This document shows, in pieces, positions 5,786-57,358 of a stretch of 60,000 bases of DNA (positions are counted from its first letter, which is position 1; every line of letters starts with the position of its first letter). Location: assembly GCF_026151205.1 (NCBI RefSeq), contig NC_087080.1, positions 8,771,720-8,831,719 of the forward strand, given 5' to 3'. The notes beneath the pieces are model-generated. The model did not search any database. It saw only the letters and a list, made by a program, of their open reading frames with translations, and was not told the origin of the DNA. Made by a program: the position numbers and the translations under genes. The stretch is from Bolinopsis microptera. Taxonomy: Eukaryota > Ctenophora > Tentaculata > Lobata > Bolinopsidae.

Positions 5786-8700
5786 AGAGAAAAACTCCTG
5801 ACGATGAGGATCTGGATCTCATTTCCTGCTATTACTTACTGCTAATTATCGCTAATTAGTAATGATTATCGCTAATTAGCAGGGATTTCTATTAATTGTT
5901 GCTGGACAATTTCGGGGGTTAAATAATTTAAATTCTAATTTCATGAGCAGCTACTGGTCTGTCGACTAATATTTTAAAGGTATTTGAATGGAGCTTTTTA
6001 AGATTTTTGATGGTTTTAAATTTTGTCACAATAAGAATATGGATTTAAATAACCAACTGTAAGTTTAATGAAGCGTCATGTAGATTATCAGAATTTCAAA
6101 CTTTGAATCCTGCCCTCAACATCACTACTCACCACCACTACTCACTACTACTCACTACTCACTGCTCACTACTCTCGCATTGTAATGTAGAGAATAACAC
6201 TTGTACTGGTTTTCAAGCAGTCTGTTCCTTACCCTCATTAACTAGCCAAGCACTTTCTCAACCTTTAATTGAAGAAAACCTACAAAGTCACTAGTACTAA
6301 TTGCCTAGTTCATACTCAGCTAACTCATGTTATGTAGTGCAGATTTTCTCACGGTTGCTTCCGGACCTGAGAAACAAATAAATAAACATCCTGATAAATT
6401 TGATCCTCGGAAATCAAGTCGATTTCTGGGATTGTATTTATAATAATATCAGGCCAATTATAAAATATAGATGCACTTACATTTAATTCACATAAGGTAA
6501 GTCATGTGTAAAGTGTTGTTTATGTTTGTGTAATTACTGTGTCTACACACTCTACTGTAAACATTGCACATCACTGCACCCTACCTAATAGCACTGTATA
6601 ATACCGCAGCAACAGACGTTATTATTATGTATGTACAACAGCATGTTGTACTGTAGTAGTACAGGTTCACGGATAAAACCACTTAGAATAAAACTCACCC
6701 TGATCACATTCCAACGAAATGATTTTAACTAGCTTATCCGTCAGATAAACAGCTCACTCGCTGTACCCTAACTGCTAACGGCCCTTAAATGTTCCCCCCA
6801 TCTAGCGACTAAGTGAGAAACTGTCTAGTGTCTAGTGTCCAGGTGCTAAATACACGGCTTGTAGTCTCGTGGTAACTCTACACAAAGAATATACATTTAA
6901 ATGTTCCAAGGGGTCTCACTTTGATCTAATTTGACTGTACAACAAAAGGCAGCCCCCCCCCCCCCCCTTATAATTTATATTTATTGTTGTACAGAGCCCT
7001 TCAGTCTGAGAGTGGGTGCTGTTTGTAAATTCTTTCTTAACGTTCATGTATCTTACTACATGGTCATGATGTACAATGTACACAAAGTAGTGATCATGTA
7101 ACATAATCCATCAAATCGTTATAAGTGTTGCAATACCCAGGAATGAGGAATCAGACCATTCTTTACAGTAATTAGCATTTAGCATGTACAATGTGTACCA
7201 TTTGTAGTAGGTTGACTGGTTGAGGGCACTCTAATCTACATATCTAATCTACATATCTAATCTACATCTCTAATCTACATATCACTACAACCCACTTTCA
7301 TGTACCTCAGTCTACAGACTTCTTCAGATAAATACTATATTATTTAAACAGCAACTTATAATGCCCAGTTAAAGTTAAAGGAATATAAATTCTAATAAAG
7401 AGGTAGCCTCGTGGTAAATGGTCTGTATTATGTTGAGAGTATTACACAGATTAAGTATAATATGTTATAGAATTCTTTCAATTGTATGATATTACAAATT
7501 TCAACATACTTTCTCGTTTATATTTGAGTTGTTATTGGCTTAACTGTAATATTTAAAAATCCCTGTTCCTCAGTAACCTCGCTCTATAATTTGGCATTCT
7601 TCTTTTAGTCCGGATAATTTCGATTACGCCATTAATGAAATAGCGGAAACATTTGCGAACAAATTCTGATATGTTTTTTTAGATTTGTTAATATTTTTAT
7701 TACTTTCACAAATAGCCCAAAATTGGATAGCGAAAATACTTCCCCAAGCTTTTAAATATAATATAATTTCTGGAATTTACATCATTCCAGATTTTACTTG
7801 AACTAAAAAGATGTAAACGTAAGTGATGAGATGAAATTTCACAATCCAGTGAGCAACACGTGCTCTCTCTAGCACGCCCTCCGATCTACCTGATAGTTGT
7901 GTAATATTGAGTGACTTCCAGCACTGTATTATTGCGACACAGCTTGCCACGCAGCTTGCTTACGTCAATCCAGACAACTTGCGTACAATTTAATAGTCCT
8001 CATTACTTTCGTTCCTTTATTGCAGGCTCAGTATAACCATTACGCCTGATAAAATATATTGACATATATTTATGTAGCTATACATGTGAAATTACATCGG
8101 AATTTAATGTTACTGAATTCTTACACATTTCTCGGATAGAGCCCAGCTTTCGTTTTGTAGTGCAGTACCACTTGTGTACCATTAGTTCTCTACCGTGTCT
8201 GACGTCTGTATCAATTTAGACTTATTTGGGCTTATGAATCGTGGACATTTTTCATGTCACTCCATAATCGTTCTGGGCCGTCGTATTATTCATTATTCAT
8301 ATAGCGTTGATAATACTAATAAATATAATAATAAGATTCTTATTGTTACACGTACAACTTACAAGTAAGGGATAATGGACTCTAAAGGCGTGCCCTTGTA
8401 TTTCTGTGGTTATGTCGCAATAGTACCAGTATGTTCTAGACTGTTCTAGTCTGTTCTATGTACAGTGAAGATTCTACACACAAATCTTTCCTGTGATTAG
8501 CAGCTTGTTAGACCAAATATAGACAAAAGATCTTGCTATGTCACGTGATACCCAAATAAGGAGACATTGCCCGAGATCTTCAAATTATAAACTTTACTAA
8601 GTGCCGTGTCTAATCACATAATACACAATAGCCTAATAGCCGGTAACACGTAATAATCAGCCCTTATACACACCATTATAAAATATAATACACACATGCA

Positions 8701-21017: not shown

Positions 21018-21117
21018 NNNNNNNNNNNNNNNNNNNNNNNNNNNNNNNNNNNNNNNNNNNNNNNNNNNNNNNNNNNNNNNNNNNNNNNNNNNNNNNNNNN
21101 NNNNNNNNNNNNNNNNN
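21018..21117. other. Assembly gap of 100 N
   Basis: Exactly 100 N bases, the usual placeholder for a scaffold join of unknown size. Sequence quality falls sharply on its right side. Confidence 0.99.
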
Positions 21118-37364: not shown

Positions 37365-40300
37365 TTAACTGAACCACCTAGAAGAATAACCACAGTCCCT
37401 GAAGAACAGTAGTCCCACACGGGAGAATGTAAGAGCCTCTGGGTAGCACCACGGCTTTTTCTTCCGACCCTCTGGATTCCTAGGAACGGAAATTTGACCA
37501 ATTTGTGTCCAAAAATATTTGTTTGTTACAAATAACCATACAAAATAACAACCATATTTTCACAATTAAATAACCCGTTAAACGAATGAAACTAACCTGC
37601 ATTTGTTGTGGTCGCCTAACGTCATTATAACCATGAGGGTGTGGGTAGTCCCTGCTCCAGTTCTGACACTTGTACAGAGAGTCAGTAGTGTCCACAGGAC
37701 CCAGATACTCTTCTCCGCTTGGAGTACCCGCACACTCCCGTCCAAACTGCAGGTATAGATTTGTTAGTTGAATTGATCTAAACCATGTTCCAAACATCAA
37801 AAGTAGGGTGAGAATCCCTGCCACGTTTTTGGTCAGCTTCGCCGGGGCTCATGTCTTTCCTCGAGGGAGCATTAGTGTCTACAGAAAAACTGACAAATCC
37901 TAGCGAAGTCCAATCCGAACCACATCTTCCATCAGAGGTGGTGCTGGGTCAGCTGGTTACTGAACGGATTGGCCTGGAGAAAAGCATAGTCCTGTCATTC
38001 TAAAGTTAACCATAGAGGGGGTCAGGCGCTGTTCGCTCACGGCTGGTTCTTGGAGCCAACACCCTCGGGCCCACAGAAGTGGGAGCACTGTCGGTGGTGG
38101 CACACCCAGATAACGGACAGTGTCGTCTCCTCTTTCTTCTTGGACTGAATTTGTTTGCTGGTGAGTCAGCTGGCAACAGTGTACATACTTTCATATTCAT
38201 GTTTTCTTCCCCACTTCGCCTACACCTCACTGTATTACTCACTCATTCACTCACATGCCGCCTTAGGGCCGCTACCCAGTTAGAGGGGATCTAACAATCA
38301 GACAAACTGCCAAGCCGTAGGGCCGCTACCAGTTAGAGGGGAATCTAAACAATCAGACAAACTGCCAGCTATTGGAGATATAGCACTTAGATTATTACCA
38401 GCAAACTTAAAATTAGCAATAATTACGTGAACAAAGAAATTGCCAAATTGCGACAAAAAAGGGTCTACTCAAAATTCAAATATCGCATGTAAATTCGTGA
38501 TCAGCACTTTAGTATAGCGCGAAATTGAGCCGCGCAATGACAAAGCTATAACACAAAAACAACAAAGATATGGGTGAATTCCATCAGAGGCTCAGGCATG
38601 CCTGGTAGGTTCCTGACAGCCCACTAGAATGACAGGGGGCAGCCTGTTCTATCGAGTACCCGGGAGAACATCTAGGCATGGGTGGTGTTCTCCCGTGAAC
38701 GAGCATTATGACAGTTTCCCTAACGGGAAACGTCGCTCACCAGGCTTTATTCCTCTGGAGGGGCGGGTCACTAGCCCATGCCAAGTGACCCAAACCTACT
38801 GACACCTACAACCAGAGGAACCCCAATAGACGTTAGTCACTAATGACGGACGTAGCCTCCCAATAGGGAGGTAAAAGTGGGTGCCCCAACTTAAAACAAC
38901 AAAAAAAAAACATCAAAATAAATGCAGCACCATGTTGCACAATTTTTAATTTGGTGATATCGATAGTTGATCAAGCAACAAAAAATATTGAAATAATTAA
39001 GTCCAATCTGTAACTTACTACACTTGGGGACAGTACAGGGGGACCAGTCTTGGTTCCCATATCTCCTGAAATGAAGCAGTAGGGACGTTTACTGTGACTC
39101 CCGAAGTTTCTACAAAAAGTTGTGTCCGGGTTGGAGTCAGGCCTGCTGGTCACATCGTCCAGTTCAGACACTCTACTAAATATTCCGACATGTTGGCTCT
39201 ACCCTTATAGTCGTTGTCCGGTACCAGTGTAGCAGAAATCGATGGTTATGACCGGGCTTGCACTGGATCTGTCCGAGGGGGGTAGGGGGGGCGGGTATCG
39301 GAGATTTCTGGTGTTAGCTGTGGAAACTCAGTTGAGAACTTGCGTTAGTGGACTACACTACATTTACAGTAGAACCCCCGATATACGCGGACCCCGATTT
39401 ATCGCGGAACCCCGATTTACCGCGGATGTTTCTTTCCCCAAACTCCGCGGTAAATCGGGGTTTTACTGTAGGTAACATTTTAGACATTCAAAAAACATTA
39501 ATCTTGGAAAAATCTGGAAATCACTGAAATCTATTTCAAAGGTTATATTAAATTAGATTACTGTAACCATCACCAAAGAAGAATTAATCGTTAAAAACTC
39601 GCCTCAATACGTCTGCCTTCGTGAGTCGTAGCTGTCCCACTTACCACTTTAACCTCCAAAGTGGCCCGTCTCTTTCAGTTCCTTCAAGTCAACATCAGCA
39701 GTGTTTTCAGTTTCTTCTCCGTCAATTGTTACCACCAGCATAGGTCCTGAGTAAAATATAGCTAAAGTTATTGAGATCGGCATAGTTCATACTATTTCAC
39801 GATTCAGAAGCCCCCACCTGCGAATTAATGAAATTAGTGGCCCACTATCATATAATGGCGCAGGAGGGTCAACCTGAAAGGCACATTGCTTTGCCCTCCT
39901 GCCCCCTCGCAAGGATCCAGGAGGTTCATTTCAGAAACAGTGCTTGACCCTCCTGCCCCACCACATGGATAGGAGGTTCATTTCAGAAAAAACAGTGCTT
40001 GACCCTCCTGCCCACCACATGGATTACGGGGGTCACCCACAAAAACAGTGCTTGACCCTTCCTGCCCCACCACATGGATTAGGGGGGTCCCACCCACAAG
40101 ACCATGTGCGCTGCACTTATTTCTACATCGCGCGCGATACGTGTGTGCGTGAAACATGAAATATTACCGCGCCCTACGCCAAGTAGACGAAAAGCGTGGT
40201 CGAAGAGCGAGAGTCGGTACAATAAATAAAACGAGAGTTGGTACATTTAACTGGCATTTTTTAACCGTGGTACAATCAGAATTGAATACAGCCGACACAG

Positions 40301-43300
40301 GATGAGGGGGGGGGGGGGGAATGACTACTGATGGAGACTTTTGAGCACCAATTGGGACGAAAATCATAGGGACTGAAGGTCAAATCGCTGGTGGAATTTA
40401 TCCATTTGTCCCATAAGTACCAAGTTTTGGCGAGTTTTATGTAGTTTTGTATTATCTTTTATTAAATGACTTCTAAGGAGACTTTTGGGTACCAATGGGG
40501 CTAAAAATCTTGGAGACTTGAGGTTAAATTGCTGGCGAAAATTCTGCACTTGTCCCCAAAGTACCCAAAGTCATTGGCTCCCCCCCCCCTCCCCCGGGTG
40601 AGGTGACGGAGAAAAAATAAACTGAGCTCAAGGCTACATTTCCAGATATCCCGCCACGCACCGTCGCTCATGCTGCAAAGTGTGTTGCGAGATGCCCACG
40701 TCATCACACGTAAAACTGTGTTCACGAATACTGAAATGCAGACGAGCAGAACAAACATAACTCTGATCAATATTTTTCATAAAACTTTCAGGATTTGCCA
40801 ATGAGGGAAAAGACAGCACCTGTCCGAGACGCTAGAAATGCATGAATCATAGGTGACATGGATAGGGTAAGAAGTTTTTTAAAACATGAAAATTGTGAAA
40901 GGAAAAGAAGTAGAAATGAGAAAGGTAGATTTAAAATGTTGAGAATCGATTTTGTGCTGAAGAACTCCGTCCGCAGGACGGCTTCCGGCTACTTATGATA
41001 ATTCGAATAAATTTGAGATTCAAACACAAGCTACGAATACGAATGCTTCTAGCAGTGGCATGCTCTTGTTTGCTGCGCATTGGCTGCAATGTATAACCGC
41101 AGTATGAAATGTCAAAAATATTTGAATTTGCTTACCTAGTGGCTTTGTTTGATAAAGCATTACCCTACTTTATATACCGATAAATCAATAATCCCTTTTG
41201 ATTCTTCGGTTTGAGAATTGTGCGGTCACACATCTCTGCAATGTCTGAAAAGGTGGCAGGGACAGTATTGAAATTACTTAAACACTATATTTACAGTTAA
41301 ACCTTGAATACTATAACTAGGGCAGTAGGAACGCCAAAAAGTAGATCATCTGACTAAAACAACTTAACTTCCTCCAAGAGTCTAGTTAGCAGCATTGTAG
41401 CGATAAGATACCACCTAGTTTGAGCTGTCGACACTGAAATAAAACAAACAATTTACTTTTCTCTACTGCAGGGGAATGCAGGTACATTTAAGATTAAAGA
41501 TATCATATATTGTATGTTTTCATCGTGGACTCAGGGGAGAAGTGCAGCTCGAAAAACCGATAAAAAGTCTAAAAACCGTTTGAGCTGGGAGTTAAAGCTA
41601 CCGATCTCGATAAGTGAGGAGTCAGATGTTAGATCGCATGTAACGTGTGTTTCGCCGCCTGAATAGGCAACATGAACTCATATTGCTGGTGAAGGTCTCG
41701 ACCAGATGTAAAATAAAGATACCCCAAATTTGTTATTTTTTAAGCCGATTCACATCGACCAAGTTCTGCTTTGACCTAAATGCTCAAACTTCGTTAATAG
41801 TTGGAAAAATCGTGTTATGCTTGTTACTAAAATAAACTTGTTTGTTTGTGAGAGGGACATCGCGATTTCCCGGATCAGAGGATCACACCCATGAGGGTTG
41901 ATTGTGCATGTGTGACTTGACAAAATTTTCAAATTGCCCGATTTTTTTTCAGTAGGTCACATTACTCGTGACGTGCAAATGTATCTTTTGTCTTTTAATA
42001 GGTCAAGCTCAGAGCTTTAAAGCTTTAAAGACTTCTCCCGTGACAAAGACGGCGACATATATCTTTACTCCAGGAAAAGTCAGAACTCTTTCCACACCAC
42101 ATTCTTAAATGTACACGACAGCAGAACCGACGATGTAGCCCCCACGCCGCAGTCAACTATAATTTTCTGACCCGGAACGAGCCCGCAACTGTAGACAGCT
42201 GCGTGAGCTCTGTACGGTTAGCAGATTTAAGAGCTTATGCAATAAGCAGTCACCGTTCACTCTCATTTTTGACTTTTCTTCTTTTGAACAACAAATGTCC
42301 ATTGAATGATGCCAAGCTAAGCGATTATGATTAGAAAAGTACCGTGATTTACACTGATGCTCATACAAGGACTTGTGGACTTCGTGAATTTGGAGGACCT
42401 GCAGCTGTAATCAGTACTTCACTACCAGATGTGCGAGGCCGAGGTTCCCGTTTGACAACATTACAAGTGGACCACCAGGCGGGATGATCACGCGCTAGTT
42501 GACATGAGATCTGATTCTCCCGGGAAAATTGGGCGAGATGACCGGTGTCCTGTCAGAGGTCACGGATACAAGGATACAAAAATATAAAATATTTTATTGT
42601 ACAATTACAATAGTCGTATAAACTTGACAACTTCGCCTACCATCACGTGGACCCTCGTCAACGAGCAAGTGAAAAATGTGTTCACAGCATTTATATTATA
42701 CGGTAACTACACCATAGATTGACAGCTAAGCGTACAGAAAAACGTCCAACTCCTGACTATAATAAAACTCCGGTATAATAGCGTTTTTGACGGAGCAATT
42801 TAATGGCCTGGAGTAGGAAACTTTGTTGACCGGAATAAATTGATCCGAAAGGCGAAAGATACATATGAGAGCGCCTCATAAGATGGTACCAAAATAATCT
42901 CTGTGAAAAGTCCTTTTTACTTTTTTAAGCGTCAAAAGTCGGTGCACTCTACTTTATCCATCGAAAAAAGGCATCCCCTGGTGGTCGTAAAGTATCGATT
43001 TTTAAGCTGTCTAGGTAGCATCTTTCTGTGCTCTCTGGCAGTCTAAGAAGAAACATTATTATATACGTCTATATACAACTAATCTTATTATAAACAGGAT
43101 CATACATAGTTAATAGAACTCCATTAAGAAAACATCTTAACTACGTAATCTGTGCCTAGTACAACAGTTTCCACACTTCCTACAGCTAGCAATATCCCTT
43201 ATTTCATTTAATCACTCAAATTTCTAAGTTCTAAGTTTCTATATTTAAGCGTCATCAACAGCATATTTGATAATAGTTTGTATTAGGTCTACCACACGCC

Positions 43301-46300
43301 CCCTTTAAATTTACCACTACTATTTAACACAAATTTCTCTTTGTTTGATGAAAAGTTTAAAGAAGCTTTACAACTTAACCTCAAACTAATGCTTCTGTCT
43401 GTCTGCTGCATTTGAGTTTATTTCTAAATGATTCGCAGCTTTCGGTAGCTCCATGTTCAGCCACCATGCCTGAAAAAATTTGGTTCACAATATCTTTGGT
43501 TCCCATAAATATTATGGTTTACCATAATATAAGTCACAAATTTTGTTAATTTCAAGTCAACAACAATATTAGTCGTACCTTAGTTCCAAAAATTTGTGTG
43601 CCCATTATATTGAGCACAATTTATTTGAGCCCCAAAATTTGGGCAGAAAATTTGAACTCATTTGGGCGACCGAAAATTTGGGCACAAATTCTTCGAAAAT
43701 GAACGATTTTCCACTAAAATTTCAGTTAGATATTTGCCTTAGTTCATTATATTCCTTATTATTCCAGTCATTTAGCTTTCAATTTTATTGTTATTCCAGT
43801 TATTTCTATTCATTTAAAATATAAGCCTTTTTACTTGGTCAAGCCATGAATGACAGATTAGAAAACTAAAATTTCAAATATTATTTCACTTGGATATGAA
43901 GGAAAAGCCATCTTTCTATAGATTTCAGGGCCACAGGCCCAAATGCCAAAAGTTTGGTTAGCAAAAAATTTAGCAGACGGAAAGATTTATGCAATTAATT
44001 TGGTCTGCAAAAAATTTGGGCGAGAGGCCCGCTCAAATTTTTTGTTCGCCCAAATTTTTGTGAATTAAGGTATTTTAAGGACCATTTTTCCATATCATTT
44101 AATTTTTTAAATTTATTCAGCTAGCTTTTTTGACTAAAATATTTTCGATCTGGGAAATTATTTAAGGACGAGTCAACATACATACATCAATTACATAGCA
44201 TCACATACATTTACCTATAACACGCAGTAGCGACTTGTATAAATTTAACGATACTTAAATTCGTTAAATCATATATCATGTATATGCTCTGCTGAAATCT
44301 TAGTCTCCTTAAAATAAGTCCTCCCATGAAATTTAGTTTACAACAATTTTAGGCAATTGTTTGACTTAATTTATGGTATAATAGATTTTTCGTTCCTGAG
44401 GAAAGGGAATTTCGGCGGATATAGTAAACACCAGACAAATATTGGTTTATGTAAATTGAGTTACGTTGTTTATCAATGATTCGAGGGCACTGCAACGAGA
44501 ATTAGAACAATTAATCAAAAATTACTGCCTAAACATTTAATGACCAAAACCTAACGAGCTTAACCTCTGTCACTCTTTTTCGGAGATTCAATATCATTTG
44601 ACACAACTCTATGGATTAACTATATGATTTTTAAAATAGGAAAAACTAATCTGGTTGTATCCTAGCAGAACTGATTCTTATATACGTTAAGAACAGTGTC
44701 AGCTGGAATATTCAAGTAAGGTCATTTGTGTGCTTTCTTTTACAACCGAAACAAGGAATTGAAATATCATTGTAAACTAAAACTGACAAGGGTAATCATA
44801 ACATAACATTGTGCTCACAGTGTCACTCCCATTCCCTGAAAAAAGCCCATTTTCTTCCAATAAGACAACAATAGGTATAAGATTGCTCTAACCGTGTTCA
44901 AATGTGTCAACAACGTAGCACCAAATGCATCAACATTAAGAGTCAACCTGTACGTGTACTACGGACTGAACAAGACTATTTCCTCCTAAATGTTCCCTAC
45001 TGTTTCAAATTATAGTAAAACTGAGAGAAGCTTTAGTTACTGTGGACCCTTTGTTTGGAATCCAGCTTCCTTAGCAATTGAGAACATTAACCCGATATCG
45101 TCTTGTTTAAAAGAGAATAAATACGCATCTCTTTGAAAAAGCATTCATATAAGTAGCATATAATAACTTTATCATAAAACCCAAACTTCATAAAAATAAG
45201 TTCTAATGTACATATTCAATATTCATGAGTCGCTTTAGATGGCTTGAACTGAATCTTTACTTAGCTGTCATTAGTTTAGTGCTCAGTGTCAACAAGAATT
45301 GTCATTCTATTTTCCCTGTGATAATATTCAATTTCAAGTCAATATATCATAGTTATTGAATGCCTATATATATCCTGAAGTTAGGACTATGATTTGACCT
45401 GCCCATCCCCTAATTTTGGAAGTTTATATGCTCCTATCGTGAAATGAGGTTAATTGAATGAAGGCTTTTCATGTTATTCTGTATTATCACGTCATCTTAC
45501 ATCACATTATCAGGTCCAGTATATCCATAATTAAGACACCAATTGAATAATGAATGTGAATTTGTTTAGAGAATAAAAATTTAGGTCCGAAAATTTTGAT
45601 CCTTCCCCCCCCCCCCCCCCCCCCCCCCGCCCGCCCCCCCTCTGGCCTTATTTCATTAAATCCATAACACCTGATCTTGAAGTTACTCACAAGGCGAGGA
45701 ACATCCTAGCCTGTCCAGCATCTGGGAGGTCTACACAGGAAACAGTAGCTCATTTAGCTCTAGGTCACCAGGCTGTGACAGTAGTCTTGATGTCCATTGT
45801 CCAACCAGTTCTGCGATTTACAGGTAACATCTAGGTAAAGAATAAGATTAAGTTGAATGTGCTTATGATGGGACCCCGGAGGGCAAGATCAGGTTATAAT
45901 AATATAACACCTTGAATTTTTAATGTACTATATACTATAATATCTGAAAGAATCTCTTCGAATATTTTTCTGTGACAAGTGGATCTTGAATCTTTGAATA
46001 GAGTTGGTGGTTACTGTCTGGTGACATTACACACTCACTTAATCTTCCTCTTGGTCCAAGGGATGTTTTAAGAAGGGCATTAATAACTTCCCTTACTGAC
46101 ATACTTACAACAAAATAGCTGCATTGCTTTGGACTTGTCAGTAGAATGCCTGAAGATCGGTTACCCAACTGTCTACTTGAATGACAACCCAAAAATAGGA
46201 AGAGATCAAGAGGCAGGTCTATAGGAAGAGCTTAAATGTAGTAGAAATGTTACCTACCCTCCGAAGATGTATAAGTAAAGTAATAAAACAGCTCCCGCAG

Positions 46301-49300
46301 ACTAATCTTTTGGATGGAGATCTCGCTAGAGTAACATGTTACTTGGTTCAATCCAATAACATATAAAATTAAAGAGTTTAAGAGTCCAAAATAGGAATTA
46401 ACACAAATATATATTAAATCATTCACTGCAACAATCACTTCATAAAATCATGTAGGAGTATTGATAAGATTGAGTTCCAGATCACCTATATATTGCTGTG
46501 GATGCTAAAATCCTGACACCTCTATAACCCCTAAAAGAAACTATACATGTCATGGGTAATGGATATCATTAGTAGGTAGTTATTGCAAACAGAGTGCTAC
46601 CAAGTGCCACGTCTTATGATTTTCTAGAAATCAGAAACAAAAAGTAAAACTCTAATCAAAATGCTGAGCGGATGAAGCAAAGACTTGAAGAAGAACTAAG
46701 AGACAACCAGAATGGCTTCAGACCTGGTTGCTCTACAACTTCGCACATTCTTGTTCTGTGAAGAATTATATAGGGTCTAAAGGCCATGAGTGTGAAGGCC
46801 ACTATGGTGTTTATAGATTTTAATAAAGCCTTTGACAGTGTACATAAAGGTTTGCTTATTAAGACCAGCCATGACTTATGTTGATAGCCTACGAGCTGAC
46901 ACGGGTCTCAACGACACTGGAGAAATGGGCGGACTTATGGCGGATAGAGTTTTATGGAGACAGCGCATCAATACTCGGACGCTGAAGTAAGTCAGAGTTA
47001 TTAAGATACTTAAAGCAAATGGTATACCAGAATAGATGGTATTACAGGGGTCTTCGAAGTCCTGGTAGGATCAGGATTCGGGAGTACTGCAAAGAGACAC
47101 CTCATACTTGTTCATCATCGTGATTGACTATATCATGACAGTGGCTATAGATGATGACTCAGACTCTGGGTTCACTCTTAAGCCTGCACAGGGTGTAGAT
47201 GGATTTGTGCTGAAAATATCGCATATGTCAAATTCTCAGATGATGGTGCCCTTATCACTGATATAATTGAATGGGGCAAAACTACTCCTGGACAGGCTAT
47301 AGGAAGCAGCAAAAAGTGTGGGGTTAGTCTTGAACAACTCTAAAACAAATCTCATGACTCTAAACACTACAGAGGAAAGTAGACTTTAAAGCTGTTCTGG
47401 AAACCAGCTGGAAAACGTACCTTGGGGGCATAGATATCAACAACTGAGAGAGACTTTAGAGAGACTTTTCAAGAGCAACTATGAAGATCCAAGAGCGTAG
47501 GATGCAACTAGCTTTGCCATATACACTGCCACCTTGAACTAGTTGCTAAGTGTGGGGTACTTAATGAACCTAACCATGGTGTGCTGAGCAGGGGAAGAAC
47601 AGTCATAACTTATGTTGATAGCCTAAGGGCTGATACAGGTTTGAGTAACACTGGAGAAATCACGGGACTTATGGAGGATAGAAATCTATCGAGACAGTGC
47701 ATCAATACTCGGACGCTGAAGCCTAAATTAAGAGAAGTTTAAAAGTTCACAATCATAATTATTATTTAAAATTGCTTCTAATAGCTACTGATAATCAGCT
47801 TGATAGTCGTCTTCCAGCCAGTTTATCAGAAATAAATAAAATGCAGAACCTAACAAAAGGACTAAAATAACTCCAAGATATATTTCATGAAAATTACTAA
47901 ATTTGCATTGGCGCTCGATTCCAAAGAATTTTTGTTAATGATGCGTTGACAAAATGCGCGGCGCGGAAAAATTATCATTTGAAATTGTTTGTTGTTCAAA
48001 CATATTTCATAAAATAATCTGTAATATATAGTTCTAATAGTGTATAAAAAAGAATATCTCAAAATATAACACTAAACAGAGCAAAAACGAGGAATCGCGC
48101 AAAAATTATATCTATTTTGACAATTTCCGCGATTTTAAATAGGAACCATTTAAATATATGAAAACAAAATACGCAAACCATTAAAATCTTGATCCATAAA
48201 TTTTTAATTGTAGAGTCCCCGGTCAATAGTTTGCAAAAATAATTTTATATACGAAAATATAAAGAATTTAAAAATTTATGGATCAATAAATTTAGGGTTT
48301 GCGTAATTTGTTAATTATACTATATGTATAAACATGGTTCCTGTTCAAAATCCCGGAAATTGTTAAAATAGATATGATTTTGCGCGATCCTCGTTTTTGC
48401 TCTGTTTAGTGTTATATTTTGAGATTATTCTTTTTTATACACTATTAGAACTATATATTACAGATTATTTTATGAAATATGTTTGAACAACAAACAATTT
48501 CAAATGATAATTTTTCCGCGCCGCGCATTTTGTCAACGCATCATTAACAAAAATTCTTTGGAATCGAGCGCCAATGCAAATTTAGTAATTTTCATGAAAA
48601 ATATCTTGGAGTTATTTTAGTCCTTTTGTTAGGTTCTGCATTTTATTTATTTCTGATAAACTGGCTGGAAGACGACTATCAAGCTGATTATCAGTAGCTA
48701 TTAGAGGCAATTTTAAATAATAATTATGATTGTGAACTTTTAAACTTCTCTTAATTTAGGCTTCAGCGTCCGAGTATTGATGCACTGTCTCGATAGATTT
48801 CTATCCTCCATAAGTCCCGTGATTTCTCCAGTGTTACTCAAACCTGTATCAGCCCTTAGGCTATCAACATAAGTTATGACTGTTCTTCCCCTGCTCAGCA
48901 CACCATGGTTAGGTTCATTAAGTACCCCACACTTAGCAACTAGTTCAAGGTGGCAGTGTATATGGCAAAGCTAGTTGCATCCTACGCTCTTGGATCTTCA
49001 TAGTTGCTCTTGAAAAGTCTCTCTAAAGTCTCTCTCAGTTGTTGATATCTATGCCCCCAAGGTACGTTTTCCAGCTGGTTTCCAGAACAGCTTTAAAGTC
49101 TACTTTCCTCTGTAGTGTTTAGAGTCATGAGATTTGTTTTAGAGTTGTTCAAGACTAACCCCACACTTTTTGCTGCTTCCTATAGCCTGTCCAGGAGTAG
49201 TTTTGCCCCATTCAATTATATCAGTGATAAGGGCACCATCATCTGAGAATTTGACATATGCGATATTTTCAGCACAAATCCATCTACACCCTGTGCAGGC

Positions 49301-52300
49301 TTAAGAGTGAACCCAGAGTCTGAGTCATCATCTATAGCCACTGTCATGATATAGTCAATCACGATGATGAACAAGTATGAGGTGTCTCTTTGCAGTACTC
49401 CCGAATCCTGATCCTACCAGGACCTCGAAGACCCCTGTAATACCATCTGCAGTTGTGATTACTTAAGCCACTGTGTTTGTGTAGATCAATCGCACTATGT
49501 ATTCTGGTATACCATTTGCTTTAAGTATCTTAATAAGCAAACCTTTATGTACACTGTCAAAGGCTTTATTAAAATCTATAAACATCATAGTGGCCTTCAC
49601 ACTCTTTAGACCCTATATAATTCTTCACAGAACAAGAATGTGCGAAGTTGTAGAGCAACCAGGTCTGGAAGCCATTCTGGTTGTCTCTTAGTTTTTCTTC
49701 AAGTCTTTGCTTCATCCTGCTCAGCATTTTGATTAGAGTTTTACTTTTTGTTTCTGATTTCTAGAAAATCATAAGACGTGGCACTTGGTAGCACTCTGTT
49801 TGCAATAACTACCTACTAATGATATCCATTACCCATGACATGTATAGTTTCTTTTAGGGGTTATAGAGGTGTCAGAATTTTAGCATCCACAGCAATATAG
49901 GTGATCTGGAACTCAATCTTATCAATACTCCTACATGATTTTATGGAGTGATTGTTGCAGTGAATGAATTTAATATATATTTGTGTTAAATTCCTATTTT
50001 GGACTCTTAAACTCTTTAATTTTATATGTTATTGGATTGAACCAAGTAACATGTTACTCTAGCGAGATCTCCATCCAAAAAGATTAGTCTGCGGGAGCTG
50101 TTTTTATTACTTTACTTATACATCTTCGGAGGGTAGGTAACATTTCTACTACATTTAAGCTCTTCCTATAGACCTGCCTCTTGATCTCTTCCTATTTTTG
50201 GGTTGTCATTAGAATTGTCATTCAAGTATTATAACCTGATCTTGCCCTCCAGGGTCCCATCATAAGCACATTCAACTTAATCTTATTCTTATTTCATTTC
50301 ATTATTTCATTTCATTTACCTAGATGTTACCTGTAAATCGCAGAACTGGTTGGACAATGGACATCAAGACTACTGTCACAGCCTGGTGACCTAGAGCTAA
50401 ATGAGCTACTGTTTCCTGTGTAGACCTCCCAGATGCTGGACAGGCTAGGATGTTCCTCGCCTTGTGAGTAACTTCAAGATCAGGTGTTATGGATTTAATG
50501 AAATAAGGCCAGAGGGGGGCGGGGGGGGGGGGGGGGGTGGGGGGAAGGATCAAAATTTTCGACCTAAATTTTATTCTCTAAACAAATTCACATTCATTAT
50601 TCAATTGGTGTCTTAATTATGGATATACTGGACCTGATAATGTGATGTAAGATGACGTGATAATACAGAATAACATGAAAGCCTTCATTCAATTAACCTC
50701 ATTTTCACGATAGGAGCATATAAACTTCCAAAATTAGGGGATGGGCAGGTCAAATCATAGTCCTAACTTCAGGATATATATAGGCATTCAATAACTATGA
50801 TATATTGACTTGAAATTGAATATTATCACAGGGAAAATATAATGACAATTCTTGTTGACACTGAGCACTAAACTAATGACAGCTAAGTAAAGATTCAGTT
50901 CAAGCCATCTAAAGCGACTCATGAATATTGAATATGTACATTAGAACTTATTTTTATGAAGTTTGGGTTTTATGATAAAGTTATTATATGCTACTTATAT
51001 GAATGCTTTTTCAAAGAGATGCGTATTTATTCTCTTTTTAAACAAGACGATATCGGTTAATGTTCTCAATTGCTAAGGAAGCTGATTCCAAACAAAGGGT
51101 CCACAGTAACTAAAGCTTCTCTCAGTTTTACTATAATTTGAAACAGTAGGAACATTTAGGAGGAAATAGTCTTGTTCAGTCCGTAGTACACGTACAGGTT
51201 GACTCTTAATGTTGATGCATTTGGTGATATAATTTGGAGCTACGTTGTTGACACATTTGAACACGGTTAGAGCAATCTTATACTCTATTTGTTGTCTTAT
51301 TGGAAGAAAGTGGGCTTTTTTCAGGAATGGAGTGACACTGTGAGCACAATGTTATGTTATGATTACCCTTGTCAGTTTTAGTTTACAATGATATTTCAAT
51401 TCCTTGTTTCTGTTGTAAAAGAAAGCACACAAATGACCTTACTTGAATATTCCAGCTGACACTGTTCTTAACGTATATAATAATCAGTTCTGCTAGGATA
51501 CAACCAGATTAGTTTTCCTATTTTAAAAAATCATATAGTTAATCCATAGAGTTGTGTCAAATGATATTGAATCTCCGAAAAAGAGTGACAGAGGTTAAGC
51601 TCGTTAGGTTTTGGTCATTAAATGTTTAGGCAGTAATTTTTGATTAATTGTTCTAATTCTCGTTGCAGTGCCCTCCAGGGACAAAAGGATTTCGCGGCAT
51701 GTACGAAATCGCGAAATTTCCCATTCTCCGCGACAAATTTTATGTGTAGTTTAATGTATAGCCTGTTAAATTTCGCGGGTACCGCGAAATTTGGCCAAAA
51801 TTATCGCGAAATCCTTTAGTCCCTGGTGCCCTCGAATCATTGATAAACAACGTAAACTCAATTTACATAAACCAATATTTTCTGGTGTTACTATATCCGC
51901 CGAAATTCCCTTTCCTCAGGAACGAAAAATCTATTATACCATAAATTAAGTCAAACAATTGCCTAAAATTGTTGTAAACTAAATTTCATGGGAGGACTTA
52001 TTTTAAAGGAGACTAAGATTTCAGCAGAGCATATACATGATATATGATTTAACGAATTTAAGTATCGTTAAATTTATACAAGTCGCTACTGCGTGTTATA
52101 GGTAAATGTATGTGATGCTATGTAATTGATGTATGTAATGTTGACTCGTCCTTAAATAATTTCCCAGATCGAAAATATTTTAGTCAAAAAAGCTAGCTGA
52201 ATAAATTTAAAAAAAATTAAATGATATGGAAAAATGGTCTTAAAAATACCTTAATTCCCAAAAATTTGGGCGACAAAAAATTTGAGCGGGCCTCTCGCCC

Positions 52301-55300
52301 AAATCTTTTGCAGACCAAATTAATTGCATAAATCTTTTCCGTCTGCTAAATTTTTTGCTAACCAAACTTTTGGCATTTGGCCTGTGGCCCTGAAATCTAT
52401 AGAAAGATGGCTTTTTCTTCATATCCAAGTGAAATAATATTTGAAATTTTAGTTTTCTAATCTGTCATTCATGGCTTGACCAAGTAAAAAGGCTTATATT
52501 TTAAATGAATAGAAATAACTGGAATAACAAAAAATTGAAAGCAAAATGACTGGAATAATAAGGAATAATAATGAACTAAGGCAAATATCTAACTGAAATT
52601 TTAGTGGAAAATCGTTCATTTTTCGAAGAATTTGTGCCCAAATTTTCGGTCGCCCAAATGAGTTCAAATTTTCTGCCCAAATTTTTGGGGCTCAAATAAA
52701 TTGTGCTCAATATAATGGCACACAAATTTTTGGGAACTAAGGTACGACTAATATTGTTGTTGACTTGAAATTAACAAAATTTGTGACTTATATTATGGTA
52801 ACCATAATATTTATGGGAACCAAAGTTATTGTGAACCAAATTTTTTCAGGCATGGTGGGCTGAACATGGAGCTACCGAAAGCTGCGAATCATTTAGAAAT
52901 AAACTCAAATGCAGCAGACAGACAGAAGCATTAGTTTGAGTTAAGTTGTAAAGCTTCTTTAAACTTTTTCATCACAAAGAGAAATTTGTGTTAAATAGTA
53001 GTGGTAAATTTAAAGGGCGTGTTGGTAGACCTAATACAAACTTATATCAAATATGCTTGTTGATGACCTTAAATATAGAAACTTAGAACTTAGAAATTTG
53101 AGTGATTTAAATGAAATAAGGGATATTGCTAGCTGTAGGAAGTGTTGGAAACTGTTGTACTAGGCACAGATTACGTAGTTAAGATGTTTTCTTAATGGAG
53201 TTCTATTAACTATGTATGATCCTGTTTTATAATAAGATTATTTGTATAGAGTCGTATATAATAATGTTTCTTCTTAGACTGCCAGAGAGCACAGAAGATG
53301 GCTACTAGACAGCTAAAATCGATACTTTACGAGCCACCAGGGGATGCCTTTTTTTCGATGGATAAAGTAAGTGCACCGACTTTTGACGCTTAAAAAAGTA
53401 AAAAGGACTTTTCACAGAGATATTTTGGTACCATCTTATGATGGCCTCTCATATGTATCTTTCGCCTTTCGGATCAATTTATTCCGGTCAACAAAGTTTC
53501 CTACTCCAGGCCATTAAATTGCTCCGTCAAAAACGCTATTATACCGGAGTTTTATTATAGTCAGGAGTTGGACGTTTTTCTGTACGCTTAGCTTGTCAAT
53601 CTATGGTGTAGTTACCGTATAATATAAATGCTGTGAACACATTTTTCACTTGCTCGTTGACGAGGGTCACGTGATGGTAGGCGAATTTGTCAAGTTTATA
53701 CGACTATTGTAATTGTACAATAAAATATTTATATTTTTGTATCCTTGTATCCGTGACCTCTGACAGGACACCGGTCATCTCGCCCAATTTTCCCGGGAGA
53801 ATCAGATCTCATGTCAACTAGCGCGTGATCATCCCGGCCTGGGTGGTCCACTTGTAATGTTGTCAAACGGGAACCTCGGCCTCGCACATCTGGTAGTGAA
53901 GTACTGATTACAGCTGCAGGTCCTCCAAATTCACGAAGTCCAACAAGTCCTTGTATGAGCCATCAGTGTAAATCACGGTACTTTTCTAATCATAATCGCT
54001 TAGCTTGGCATCATTCAATGGACATTTGTTGTTCAAAAGAAGAAAAGTCAAAAATGAGAGTGAACGGTGACTGCTTATTGCATAAGCTCTTAAATCTGCT
54101 AACCGTACATAGCTCACGCAGCTGTCTACAGTTGCTGGGCTCGTTCCGGGTCAGAAATTTAAAGTTTACTGCGGCGTGGGGCTACATCGTCGTTCTGCTG
54201 TCGTGTACATTTAAGAATGTGGTGTGGAAAGAGTTCTGACTTTTCCTGGAGTAAAGATATATGTCGGCCGTCTTTGTCACGGAGAAGTCTTTAAAGCTTT
54301 AAAGCTCTGAGCTTGACCTATTAAAAGACAAAAGATACATTTGCACGTCACGAGTAATGTGACCTACTGAAAAAAAATCGGGCAATTTGAAAATTTAGTC
54401 AAGTTCACACATGCACAATCAACCCCTCATTGGTGTGATCCTCTGATCCGGGAAATCGAGATGTCCTCTCACAAACAACAGTTATTAGTAACAAGCATAA
54501 CACGATTTTCCAATCTATTAACGAAGTTTGAGCATTTAGGGTCAAAGCAGAGACTTGGGTCGATGTGAATCGGCTTAAAAATAACAAATTTGGGGTATCT
54601 TTATTTTACATCTTGGTCGAGACCTGTCACCAGCAATATGATTTCATGTTGCCTTATTCAGGCGGGCGAAACTCACGTTACATGCGATCTGATCATCTGA
54701 CTCTCACGATCGAGATCGGTAGCTTTAACTCACCAGCTCCAACACGGTTTTTTAGACTTTTTTCGGTTTTTCGAGCTGCCCTTCTCCCCTGAGGCCACGA
54801 TGAAAAACATACAATATATTATATCTTTATTCTTTATATGTTACATGCATTCCCCTGCAGTAGTGAAAAGTAAATTGTTTGTTTTATTTCAGTGTCGACA
54901 GCTCAAACTATGGTGGTATCTTATCGCTACAATGCTGCTAACTAGACTCTTGGATGAAGTTAAGTTGTTTTAGTCAGATGATCTACTTTTTGGCGTTTCC
55001 TACTGCCCTAGTTATAGTAGTTCAAGGTTTAACTGTAAATATAGTGTTAAGTAAGTTTCAATACTTCCCTGCCACCTTTTCAGACATTGCAGAGATGTGT
55101 GACCGCACAATTCTCAAACCGAAGAATCAAAAGGAGTTATTGATTTATCGGTATATAAAGTAGGTATGCTTTATCAAACAAAGCCACTAGGTAAGCAAAT
55201 TCAAATATTTTGACAGTTCATACTGCGGTTATACATTGCAGCCAATGCGCAGCAAACAAGAGCTTGCCACTGCTATAAGCATTCGTATTCGTAGCTTGTT

Positions 55301-57358
55301 TGAATCTCAAATTTATTCGAATTATCATAAGTAGCCGGAAGCCCGTCCTGCGGACGGAGTTCTTCAGCACAAAATCGATTCTCAAACATTTTAAATCTAC
55401 CCTTTCTCATTTCTACTTCTTTTCCTTTCACAATTTTCATGTTTTTAAAAAACTTCTTACCCCTATCCATGTCACCTATGATTCATGCATTTCTAGCTTC
55501 TCGGACAGTGCTGTCTTTTCCCTCATTGGCAAATCCTGAAAGTTTTATGAAAAATATAGATCAGAGTTATGTTTGTTCTGCACGTCTGCATTTCAGGTAT
55601 TCGTGACACAGTTTACGTGTGATGACGTGGGCATCTCTCAACACACTTTGCAGCATGAGCGACGGTGCCGTGGCGGGATATCTGGAAATGTAGCCTTGAG
55701 CTCAGTTTATTTTTCTCCGTCACCTCACCCGGGGGAGGGGGGGGGGGAGCCAATGACTTTGGGTACTTTGGGGACAAGTGCAGAATTTCGCCAGCAATTT
55801 AACCTCAAGTCTCCAAGATTTTTAGCCCCCATTGGTACCCAAAAGTCTCCTTTAGAAGTCATTTAATAAAAGATAATATCAAAACTACATAAAACTCGCC
55901 AAAACTTTGGGTACTTATGGGGACAAATGGAAAATTTCACCAGCGATTTGACCTTCAGTCCCTATGATTTTCGTCCCCATTGGTGCTCAAAAGTCTCCAT
56001 CAGTAGTCATTGCCCCCCCCCCCCCCCCCCCCCTCATCCTGTGTCGGCTGTATTCAATTCTGATTGTACCACGGTTAAAAAATGCCAGTTAAATGTACCA
56101 ACTCTCGTTTTATTTATTGTACCGACTCTCGCTCTTCGACCACGCTTTTCGTCTACTTGGCGTAGGGCGCGGTAATATTTCATGTAATCACGCACACACG
56201 TATCGCTCGCGATGTAGAAATAAGTGCAGCGCACATGGTCTTGTGGGTGACCCCCGTAATCCATGTGGTGGGGCAGGAGGGTCAAGCACTGTTTTTGTGG
56301 GTGACCCCCGTAACCATGTGGTGGGGCAGGAGGGTCAAGCACTGTTTTTTCTGAAATGAACCTCCTGATCCATGTGGTGGGGCAGGAGGGTCAAGCACTG
56401 TTTCTGAAATGAACCTCCTGATCCATGCGGTGGGGCAGGAGGGTCAAGCAATGTTCTTTTCAGGTTGAACCTCCTGCGCCATTATAATCACTGCACTGGA
56501 TGTTTTATAAATTGTGACCGATAAAGCTTTGTTAACTTGAACTGGAAACTAAGTAAAGTTCATCCCATTGTGCATGGATGATGACGTACCGACACATGCA
56601 TCAGGACTCTCAGAACTGTCAAAATAAGTGAAGTGGTTCTCCGGACAGGGGGTACATTCAGAAGACCCTCTCACTGATGCATAGGTACCCTGAACAATAA
56701 CAAATAAATGTTCAAATTCATAACGTATTGTAACCAAGATAATTAATTCTCAATGTTTGCTTATTTGTGACGTATAATTAATGGAGAAATAACTTGCCTC
56801 CCTGCATCAAAACTATTTTTGGTATGAATCACGATAAAAGAAGATATTGCATAATAGAAGACTAAAACTCTGACCCTTGGACATCTGATACAGTGAGACC
56901 GTCCACCATTTCCGGGCTGATAGCTGCCCTTGGGACAGAGATGGCACTCTCCGAACACAAGGTAAGTTCCTCTAGGACACTGCTGCTCCTCCGCAAACAC
57001 TGCACATACCACGACCTGGACATAAACATATATCAGGATTATTCTTTAGATGTTTTCTTGGAGGCTCAAGCGTCTCTCAGTCTCTCCGTCAGAAAGTAAT
57101 TATAAAAGCGAAGCCAAACGTTAGGGGTCGTTCACATATTATTACGTAATCACTTTTTGAACAATTTATACCCCCCCCCCTCCGTAATCAGTTTTAAAGA
57201 TAGCTATTGTGTCCAAATTACACTAGCGTAATCATTCGGAAACCCCCTCCCCCTCGGCTGATTACGTAATATGAGTACGACCACCCCTTATTAAATAGAG
57301 ATGTGTACGGTTAATAAATTTGACTCACTGTTAAAAAAGTCAGTAACACAATCTTCAT
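37365..57358 (-). CDS. Secreted protein with Cys-rich repeats and two kringles
   Basis: Exon 1 (57358-57329) and the start of exon 2 (57015-56875) encode a signal peptide, MKIVLLTFLT plus VVVCAVFAEEQQ. Exons 2 and 3 (56689-56590) carry two ephrin-receptor/TNFR-like repeats (CPRGTYLVFGECHLCPKGSY; GTYASVRGSSECTPCPENHF). Exon 4 (39746 to about 39650) joins in phase and encodes an acidic spacer. A kringle exon (about 39260-39019) shows CYTGTGQ, DYKGRANMSEYLVECLNW and NPDTTFCRN. A second kringle spans 37746-37597 (ECAGTPSGEEYLGP, YKCQNWSRDYPHPH) and about 37478-37365 (NPEGRKKKPWCY). Kringles bind proteins or lysine side chains outside cells. Single-base frame breaks occur in kringle 1 (two), in kringle 2 (at RVWDYC) and near the end of exon 4, and the last junction is out of phase: either unpolished indels or decay. 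Intron 3 is filled by a 16.6-kb palindrome. Confidence 0.7.
37850..38920. repeat. GC-richer repetitive DNA between the kringle exons
   Basis: Contains a direct doublet of about 55 bp (CCGTAGGGCCGCTACCAGTT, then AGAGGGGATCTAAC and CAGACAAACTGCCA) at 38,265-38,370. It also contains a block at 38,580-38,890 rich in short inverted pairs (GTTTCCCTAACGGGAAAC, CTCCCAATAGGGAG) that ends before an A-rich tail. This looks like a retroelement end or SINE. No protein match seen. Confidence 0.45.
39367..39468. mobile_element. pogo/Tigger-type MITE
   Basis: A 102-bp element flanked by TA on both sides (39,365-39,366 and 39,469-39,470). Ends are CAGTAGAACCCCCGAT and the near-complement ATCGGGGTTTTACTG, with further CGCGG-containing inverted blocks inside. 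The CAGT start, AACCC motif and TA target are typical of the pogo branch of Tc1/mariner. Confidence 0.85.
39880..40100. repeat. Terminal tandem repeats, left arm
   Basis: Four or so units of about 55 bp built on CTTGACCCTCCTGCCCCACC, ACATGGAT, then either AGGAGGTTCATTTCAGAAA or a GGGGGTCACCCACAAAA variant. Unit spacing varies. Confidence 0.8.
42153..42368 (-). other. Reading frame conserved in both arms, left copy
   Basis: Encodes CKSRYFSNHNRLAWHHSMDI followed by CCSKEEKSKMRVNGDCLLHK. The same frame is open in the right arm at 53,955-54,239. His and Cys are frequent. I do not recognise a domain; it may be a shred of the element's own protein or chance. Confidence 0.3.
43576..44072. mobile_element. 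MITE with TACCTTA termini, left arm copy
   Basis: Ends are TACCTTAGTTCCAAAAATTTG and the inverted CAAATTTTTGTGAATTAAGGTA. Inside are several CAAAATTTGGGC/GCCCAAATTTT blocks in both orientations. It shares the first seven bases with the element at 19,711. Confidence 0.7.
44897..45070 (+). pseudogene. LINE polymerase C-terminal fragment, left arm
   Basis: Reads FKCVNNVAPN, then loses about 13 bp that the right arm retains (YITK codons) between short direct CCAAAT repeats. It continues CINIKSQPVRVLRTEQDYF and FSYCGPFVWN in shifted frames. The pattern (FKC-N-APxY...LR...P...F...GP-x-WN-x-LP) is the conserved tail of many non-LTR retrotransposon polymerases. Confidence 0.65.
45902..46171. other. 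270-bp segment present only in the left arm
   Basis: The left arm reads AGATCAGGTTATAAT, then this segment, then TTGAATGACAACCC. The right arm joins the two sides directly (GGTTATAATACTTGAATGACA in complement). The segment overlaps an 85-codon minus-strand frame (MGCHSSRQLGNRSSGIL onward) of unknown meaning. An insertion in the left arm or a deletion in the right is possible; no clean target duplication was seen. Confidence 0.6.
46661..47722 (+). pseudogene. Non-LTR reverse transcriptase remnant, left arm
   Basis: Fragments in order: NQNGFRPGCSTTSHILVL, stop, ATMVFIDFNKAFDSVHKGLL (finger/palm block A), SGVLQRDTSYLFIIVIDYIM (block B), then NIAYVKFSDDGALIT with the catalytic F-x-D-D box, and a C-terminal TYVDSLRADTGLSNTGEIT at about 47,610. 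The order is that of RTE/CR1-like LINE polymerases. In-frame stops and frame changes show it is dead. A 134-bp insertion splits it at 46,864. Confidence 0.8.
46864..46997 (+). mobile_element. 134-bp LINE 3'-end insertion, left arm only
   Basis: Flanked by TTATTAAG on both sides (46,856-46,863 and 46,998-47,005), while the right arm has one copy of this octamer. The insert encodes TYVDSLRADTGLNDTGEMG and ends near CGGACGCTGAAG, the same 3' end as the resident element at about 47,607-47,722. It fits a 5'-truncated LINE insertion. Confidence 0.75.
48761..49738 (-). pseudogene. Non-LTR reverse transcriptase remnant, right arm
   Basis: Mirror of the left-arm remnant with the same blocks (NGFRPGC, FIDFNKAFDSVHKGLL, KFSDDGALI). 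Here the FDSVHKGLLIKILKANGIPE block is uninterrupted. This copy also keeps about 45 bp (near 49,451-49,500) that the left arm lacks. Confidence 0.8.
51073..51264 (-). pseudogene. LINE polymerase C-terminal fragment, right arm
   Basis: The longer, in-frame mirror of the left-arm fragment: MFKCVNNVAPNYITKCINI, then RVLRTEQDYFLLNVP and SYCGPFVWNQLP. It matches the tail of CR1/Jockey-like LINE ORF2 proteins. No polymerase domain is attached in frame. Confidence 0.7.
51675..51826. mobile_element. 152-bp MITE, right arm only
   Basis: Terminal inverted repeats are CCAGGGACAAAAGGATTTCG and its near-complement ending CCTTTAGTCCCTGG. TGCCCT is duplicated on both sides (51,669-51,674 and 51,827-51,832). 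The left arm has the empty site with one copy (AGGGCA at 44,484-44,489). Inside are CGCGAAATTT blocks in both orientations. Confidence 0.88.
52247..52744. mobile_element. MITE with TACCTTA termini, right arm copy
   Basis: Mirror copy of the left-arm element, with ends TACCTTAATTCCCAAAAATT and CAAATTTTTGGGAACTAAGG. Substitutions distinguish the copies. It was present before the arms became inverted copies. Confidence 0.7.
53955..54239 (+). other. Reading frame conserved in both arms, right copy
   Basis: Same protein core as the left-arm copy (HQCKSRYFSNHNRLAWHHS), 94 codons here because the frames part after the shared part. The upstream sequence is also open (GPPNSRSPTSPC), so the ATG may not be the true start. 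Function unknown. Confidence 0.3.
56225..56475. repeat. Terminal tandem repeats, right arm
   Basis: The complement of the left-end array, with GGTGGGGCAGGAGGGTCAAG in each unit and alternating CACTGTTTTTGTGGGTGACC or TTTCTGAAATGAACCTCCTG spacers. About five units. Confidence 0.8.
57123..57290. mobile_element. MITE with TAGGGGTCGTTC ends
   Basis: The left end AGGGGTCGTTCACATATTA, with TTACGTAATC, is mirrored on the right by GATTACGTAATATGAGTACG and ACCACCCCTTA. It lies in intron 1 of the kringle gene. TTA flanks both sides. Short C runs lie inside. Non-coding. Confidence 0.75.

Follow-up and report, generated by a model that had tools for sequence, protein, structure and literature searches.

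Long near-perfect palindromes are generally thought to be hard to keep and hard to move. Among mobile elements with inverted ends, TU leaves target duplications of about 8 bp and FB of about 9 bp. TU of sea urchin and FB of Drosophila are cited in PMC4079207 as the founding fold-back elements, a structural class that is already established, and most fold-backs are assigned there to the Mutator superfamily. The same paper describes Tetris, a fold-back of Drosophila virilis, as non-autonomous, with tandem repeats in its ends and no autonomous copy found; its ends reach at most 1,735 bp and flank a separate middle domain, and its duplications are 8-10 bp long. Galileo, a fold-back-like element of the P superfamily in Drosophila, has inverted ends that are long and repetitive within; according to PMC3573991, many of its copies lack a transposase gene, chimeric copies occur whose flanks do not match, the duplications are 7 bp, and the longest ends in D. 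mojavensis measure 1,260 and 1,241 bp. The window analysed here (a whole stretch of 60,000 nucleotides, C9:8771720-8831719) holds a palindrome that shares these likenesses and differs from Galileo in its 5-bp duplications and its arms of about 8.3 kb. It is very probably one copy of a young, non-autonomous family of giant fold-back DNA transposons, in which the whole palindrome is mobile and is moved in trans.

The palindrome and its host intron

The element is a near-perfect inverted repeat of 16,636 bp with exactly placed ends, TATAATGGCGC...GCGCCATTATA (Table 1), and arms of 8,391 bp on the left and 8,245 bp on the right. Self-comparison of the window confirmed what had been proposed from the letters alone, namely a 16.6-kb palindrome with arms of about 8.3 kb present as one insertion, and gave inverted matches nearly throughout: 39851-44490 to 56486-51826 (96.1%), 44483-45842 to 51675-50311 (97.2%), 46180-46864 to 50210-49528 (97.4%) and 47034-49448 onto itself (96.4%). 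The tip sequence of the family is TATAATGGCG (TATAATGGCGCAGG); read inward, both tips give TATAATGGCGCAGGAGG, followed by tandem repeats of the 54-bp type. The central 361 bases have a predicted folding energy of -109.7 kcal/mol, compared with a shuffle mean of -30.4 (z -20; 0/100 shuffles as good), and imperfect pairing runs on into the loop, put at about 62 bp in the first-pass annotation, in the predicted fold. Elsewhere in the window, self-comparison showed an array of matches at 10-bp spacing at 1186-1524. The window also contains a RING-finger frame, for which one homologue, 81% identical, was retrieved.

Table 1 Features of the palindromic element and its surroundings in the window
Feature	Position	Strand	Basis or remark
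Host exon 4	39654..39746	-	predicted; numbering of the first-pass annotation
Left target duplicate, TATCA	39846..39850	+	flank comparison
Whole palindromic element	39851..56486	.	self-comparison, end reading, flanks
Left arm, beta type, error-rich outer part	39851..48241	+	arm comparison, marker typing
Left 22-bp tip	39851..39872	+	identical at 46/50 sites found
Left subterminal ~54-bp tandem repeats, 3.6 copies	39883..40099	+	two overlapping rows, 39883-40079 and 39935-40099
Marker 1, beta-arm insertion	45905..46178	+	query positions 157-274 also a dispersed repeat
Marker 2, beta state	46864..47034	+	~133 extra bases, 51 missing
Centre/loop	48121..48360	+	found in 9/10 copies searched, not in C6a
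Right arm, alpha type, reference arm	48242..56486	-	arm comparison, marker typing
Marker 2, alpha state	49407..49547	-
Right subterminal ~53-bp tandem repeats, 4.0 copies	56259..56476	-
Right 22-bp tip	56465..56486	-	one mismatch
Right target duplicate, ATCA, one base short of TATCA	56487..56490	+	flank comparison
Host exon 3	56590..56689	-	predicted; numbering of the first-pass annotation

The element lies in an intron of 16,843 bp (39747-56589) with GT-AG ends and phase 1, joining predicted exons 3 and 4. Subtraction of the element and four duplicated bases leaves 203 bp, so that the earlier description of a normal short, in-phase intron agrees with the predicted gene structure. Since the element is intronic, the host transcript could carry a 16-kb hairpin.

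A dispersed family with a 5-bp target duplication

The genome (264,652,675 bases, or 264.65 Mb, in 232 contigs) was searched with the element's first 400 bases, yielding 43 matches from 51 candidates, 40 of them scored. With the 22-bp tip and up to three mismatches allowed, 50 sites were found, 46 of them exact, compared with one for the reversed control; among these sites were 14 facing tip pairs, 15-32 kb apart. The search by end sequence suggested in the first-pass annotation thus returned both other copies and flanking duplications. Ten copies were read, comprising the window copy (C9w, with arms C9w_L and C9w_R) and nine fetched ones. All ten are palindromes with an interior common to the window copy, and one, C6a, has lost its extreme left tip. 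Five more two-ended copies (C12, C6c, C3, C1b and C7b) were examined at their ends and, for C12 and C6c, in part of the middle as well; three small contigs carry a tip only.

Comparison of the flanks revealed an exact 5-bp match in 9/14 two-ended copies and in 1/182 swapped pairings. An exact match at 4 bp occurred once in 14, in the window copy, and none of the 14 matched at 2, 3, 6, 7, 8 or 9 bp. The five duplicated bases of C2a are displaced by two; C4, C5 and C12 showed no target duplication, and the right tip of C12 is itself altered. TATCA/ATCA in the window is best read as a 5-bp duplication minus one base. ATCA had been noted at both ends as a 4-bp duplication and set down as weak evidence by itself; the flanking repeat stands, and the length has to be corrected, given TATCA on the left and the exact 5-bp matches at other copies. 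C4 and C5, lacking duplications, resemble the chimeric copies of Galileo; by analogy, they would be a sign of copies having exchanged sequence.

Most kept arms are 99.8-100% identical between copies across their outer 2.9 kb; the outliers are C10 and C2b_L, about 0.7% away, and C2a_R, 0.5% away. At the mutation rates familiar for animals, most of the family's burst would fall within some hundred thousand years. The best reading of the near-identical copies is a young family of giant palindromes, recently spread in the genome: near-perfect long palindromes now occupy at least 14 two-ended places through recent multiplication. At C6:3968800-3978500 lies an older relative that retains the inverted layout. 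It is 75-91% similar to copy C4, and its arms are 96% alike over 544 outer bases and 82-87% alike over short inner ones. C11:12034880-12043611 holds two diverged palindrome centres in inverted orientation, separated by about 8 kb. The tips C1:12862040 and C1:12864473 point the same way and are 2.4 kb apart, foreign sequence interrupting the first about 190 bases in.

The invariant tip, the subterminal repeats and the fixed 5-bp duplication lead us to infer a cut-and-join enzyme. The mobile unit would be the whole palindrome, made up of beta arm, loop and alpha arm with the invariant tip and the 54-bp subterminal repeats. An enzyme supplied in trans would recognise the two alike tips and join them to the target with a 5-bp stagger, giving the 5-bp duplication, and the subterminal repeats may take part. 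Alternatively, the palindrome could be a replication structure, left by a hairpin or by a linear or circular extrachromosomal replicating intermediate. The near-identity of most kept outer arms across copies would suit such an origin, as would the self-folding of the tip, for the outermost 115 bases of copy C4 fold better than shuffles (z -4.7, 0/200 as good). However, the neighbouring subterminal stretch of C4, further in, folds no better than its shuffles (z -0.4), no replication gene was seen in the element, the tip has no exact match in viral contigs, and it is a cut-and-join enzyme that leaves an invariant tip together with a fixed 5-bp duplication. We therefore consider a replicating intermediate unlikely and retain movement by an enzyme acting in trans.

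Asymmetric inheritance and concerted change of the arms

Each arm was aligned tip-first to the right arm of the window copy, and comparison across the ten copies revealed two inner states, alpha and beta. Beta arms carry about 278 extra bases at arm position 6260 (marker 1), and about 133 extra bases with 51 missing near arm positions 6959-7038 (marker 2). At marker 2 every copy has one alpha and one beta arm (10/10, with C7_R typed from a partial, low-quality match), and the orientation of the loop agrees with which arm is marker-2 beta in all nine copies where the loop was found. A single arm carries the marker 1 insertion in 8/10 copies, and both arms carry it in C6a and C7; a genome search (160 candidates, 40 scored) also placed it on both sides of the centre in C3, judged by position, and in older relatives on C6 and C11. 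With one exception allowed per group, 17 consistent differences separate alpha from beta arms, all at arm positions 6792-8199 of 8,245 and none further outward; for this count C9w_L, C11_R, C2b_R and C7_R were dropped for error, and the tip repeats, a G run and the first bases were masked. A smooth rise of divergence toward the loop was considered and dropped, as in binned profiles of the cleaner copies the difference falls mostly within the few hundred bases nearest the loop.

The marker 2 asymmetry and the loop orientation indicate that the palindrome predates its spread and has been inherited whole, as beta-loop-alpha. Since all ten copies combine one alpha and one beta arm, the palindrome is neither remade at each site nor an assembler's mirror, and these two possibilities can be weighed in turn.

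If each copy had arisen where it now sits, one arm being duplicated in inverted form (through template switching at a replication fork, for instance), alpha/alpha or beta/beta copies would be expected, and at marker 2 there are 0/10; target duplications at both ends would likewise be unpredicted. Such an origin would account for the outer arms of C4, which are 100% identical over 4,353 bp, for outer variants being mostly common to both arms of a copy, and for marker 1 being beta on both sides in C6a and C7 and, judged by position, in C3. This marker 1 state is also present in the old relatives on C6 and C11, however, so it may be ancestral. Per-site duplication is thus extremely improbable. 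The first-pass annotation had offered inverted duplication as one origin of the palindrome: it fails for individual copies, given their shared asymmetry, and is likely for the founder, which would have arisen once by inverted duplication and then gathered a few differences near its centre.

An artefact of sequencing or assembly was weighed against the state of the sequence around the element. The window contains 100 N at 21018-21117, a scaffold gap, after which, as far as about 36 kb (36300), 23-60% of bases lie in runs of at least four, compared with 4-11% before it; these roughly 15 kb appear to reflect very poor raw sequence, not biology. Compared over the outer 2.9 kb with the clean arms of most other copies, the window copy is 99.8-99.9% identical in its right arm and 96.5-96.6% in its left, and C9w_L, C11_R and C2b_R are about 3.5-9% off. 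The first 2.7 kb of C9w_L contain 54 indel events and 97 substitutions, of which just 27 are transitions, compared with 2 indel events and 4 substitutions for C9w_R, and the differences in C9w_L are densest in its outer part. Real divergence of the left arm is therefore doubtful: from this excess, together with the poor sequence near the gap, the 4% mismatch between the arms is probably mostly consensus error on the left. Nanopore reads are described in PMC7229812 as degrading past the junction of an inverted duplicate, a parallel to be read with the proviso that the platform of the present assembly may be another. For assemblers the case is a warning that one arm of a palindrome alone can carry heavy error.

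Fold-back artefacts in long reads have been described (PMC12870357), and fold-back chimeric reads, or alleles set head to head, could have given a false mirror; the gap and poor sequence to the left, the error-rich single arms of several copies and the contigs with the tip alone would be in keeping with this. Yet both arms of a mirrored read would be of one type, unlike those of the ten copies, the 5-bp duplications fall beyond the mirrored sequence, and the flanking host exons are predicted to splice in frame. Two alleles joined by the assembler, named beforehand as the case that would overturn the insertion, would explain neither the shared asymmetry nor the duplications. We regard an artefact as very unlikely.

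The outer arms show a different pattern. Nine substitutions in the first 2.7 kb are common to at least two kept arms, and all nine are in both arms of carriers with both arms kept (C9w_L, C11_R and C2b_R dropped, repeats masked, three further listed sites uncounted as flank bases); five of them, at C10/C2b_L sites, are also present in the dropped arm C2b_R. Six copies carry a 493-bp deletion in both arms, three lack it altogether, and C5 has it on one side only; in C2b_L it is part of a larger change. Over the outer 5.5 kb, the kept arms differ in 25 copy-site cases, compared with 14 in which they share a variant, and nearly all of the 25 are confined to a single arm, as expected of new mutations. 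The concert is incomplete, since a variant at position 3086 is found in C2a_R and again in C5_L. The stretch from 5.5 to 6.5 kb adds 64 differing cases, for most of which the error-rich C6b_L probably accounts. At about position 2963, an insert of some 1.47 kb, its edge duplicated over 40 bp, is present on one side of C5 and on both sides of C6a, where it has twice the length on one of them (L014-L018); it suggests exchange between copies or arms. C5 thus has both the 493-bp deletion and the 1.47-kb insert in one arm only, which also speaks against full concert.

On the sequence evidence, the outer 6.5 kb appears to evolve largely in concert, with copying from arm to arm as the simplest reading. 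The outer 6.5 kb would be kept alike by gene conversion or by repair copying from the tips, and roughly the innermost 1.5 kb would escape. The alpha/beta markers offer a natural experiment that separates the part of the palindrome subject to arm-to-arm copying from the part that escapes it, and through them ideas on the cellular replication and repair of giant palindromes become testable. Large DNA transposons are limited by a loss of efficiency with distance, as set out in PMC6431247. We tentatively offer the idea, with a fairly low chance of being right, that the palindrome is a functional state and not a worn-out one: by pairing, the 8-kb arms would bring together tips 16 kb apart and so escape the loss with distance, selection for movement would keep the outer arms alike, and the divergent centre would guard the DNA from collapse. 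If true, a non-coding element would keep moving whatever its size.

Coding content and relation to known elements

Open stretches that overlap the window copy reach at most 136 codons. A Pfam search of ten stop-free right-arm frames gave no family above the cut-off (two weak rows, E 0.057 and 0.098), one right-arm frame had no homologue and another matched no solved structure, and an Rfam search gave no match. No transposase or autonomous copy was found in the element or among the tips followed inward, a set without those at C6:19985967, C41, C51 and C146 and some of those in another repeat family. As none was found in the element, its enzyme would be supplied in trans, as the first-pass annotation had proposed for a giant fold-back; the other copies, the invariant tip and the 5-bp duplications also favour that proposal.

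Several candidates for an autonomous partner were considered. C1:1231659 matches the palindrome family for 213 bases from its tip and C2:14144363 for less, and the 6 kb read of each had no matching inverted tip. C1:12864473 and C9:2098566 were rejected as belonging to partial or interrupted copies of the same palindrome, and five tips in four loci (L049-L052) were rejected as sitting in another repeat, the left flank being the same at all five. At these loci, at C6:18773085 and at other tips, a fragment of the palindrome tip lies inside another dispersed repeat; two of the four loci carry a frame, with a weak, below-cut-off match to a RanBP2-type zinc finger in L051, the one scanned. The extra length of C5, C6a, C7, C10, C12 and C6c is at least partly due to nested elements. 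The C6c frame (L048) is a retroelement by Pfam, and in C5, C7, C10 and C12 there are frames that we take to be FLYWCH/MULE, AlkB and reverse transcriptase. The presumed FLYWCH/MULE-like frame of C5 and C6a lies in a nested insert at one site.

The family has the features of the fold-back class. Long inverted ends make up most of the element (8,391 + 8,245 bp; 10/10 copies palindromic), tandem repeats of about 54 bp lie in the outer ends on both sides of the window copy, and target duplications are present at independent sites (5 bp, 9/14 versus 1/182 swapped). The palindrome family is thus classed as a giant variant within that established class. As for a superfamily, Transib elements make a 5-bp duplication and have CACWATG-type tips; the duplication length fits, and the tip TATAATGGCG does not. 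For the Mutator superfamily the expected duplication length varies, from the 8-10 bp of Tetris to the 4-10 bp given for the IS256/MuDR group; the present length is 5 bp, and none of the 14 copies matches at 8 or 9 bp. No autonomous relative sharing these ends and encoding a MULE transposase was found among the tips read, a subset of the sites. The 6-bp duplication given for Polinton/Maverick and the 7-bp one of the P superfamily and Galileo were each found in 0/14. TDD-4 and TDD-5 leave 5-bp duplications, so that 5 bp agrees with the 4 or 5 bp of Ginger2/TDD, whereas animal Ginger2 elements differ in having 4-bp duplications and ends of 50-180 bp (PMC2836005). Nothing ties the palindrome family to Ginger2/TDD, Transib or IS256/MuDR.

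Arms conserved through gene conversion are also described for the palindromes of mammal and willow sex chromosomes in PMC7023750; those lie on sex chromosomes, whereas the present ones are dispersed copies with target duplications. Dispersed palindromes with such arms and 5-bp duplications were absent from the titles and opening lines of abstracts searched, a literature in which subscription journals are largely unrepresented. Arms of about 8.3 kb, which the first-pass annotation held to exceed those of most known fold-backs, compare with longest reported ends of 1,735 bp in Tetris and 1,260 bp in Galileo: the arms of this family are several times longer than the 1.3-1.7 kb of Galileo in D. 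mojavensis and of Tetris.
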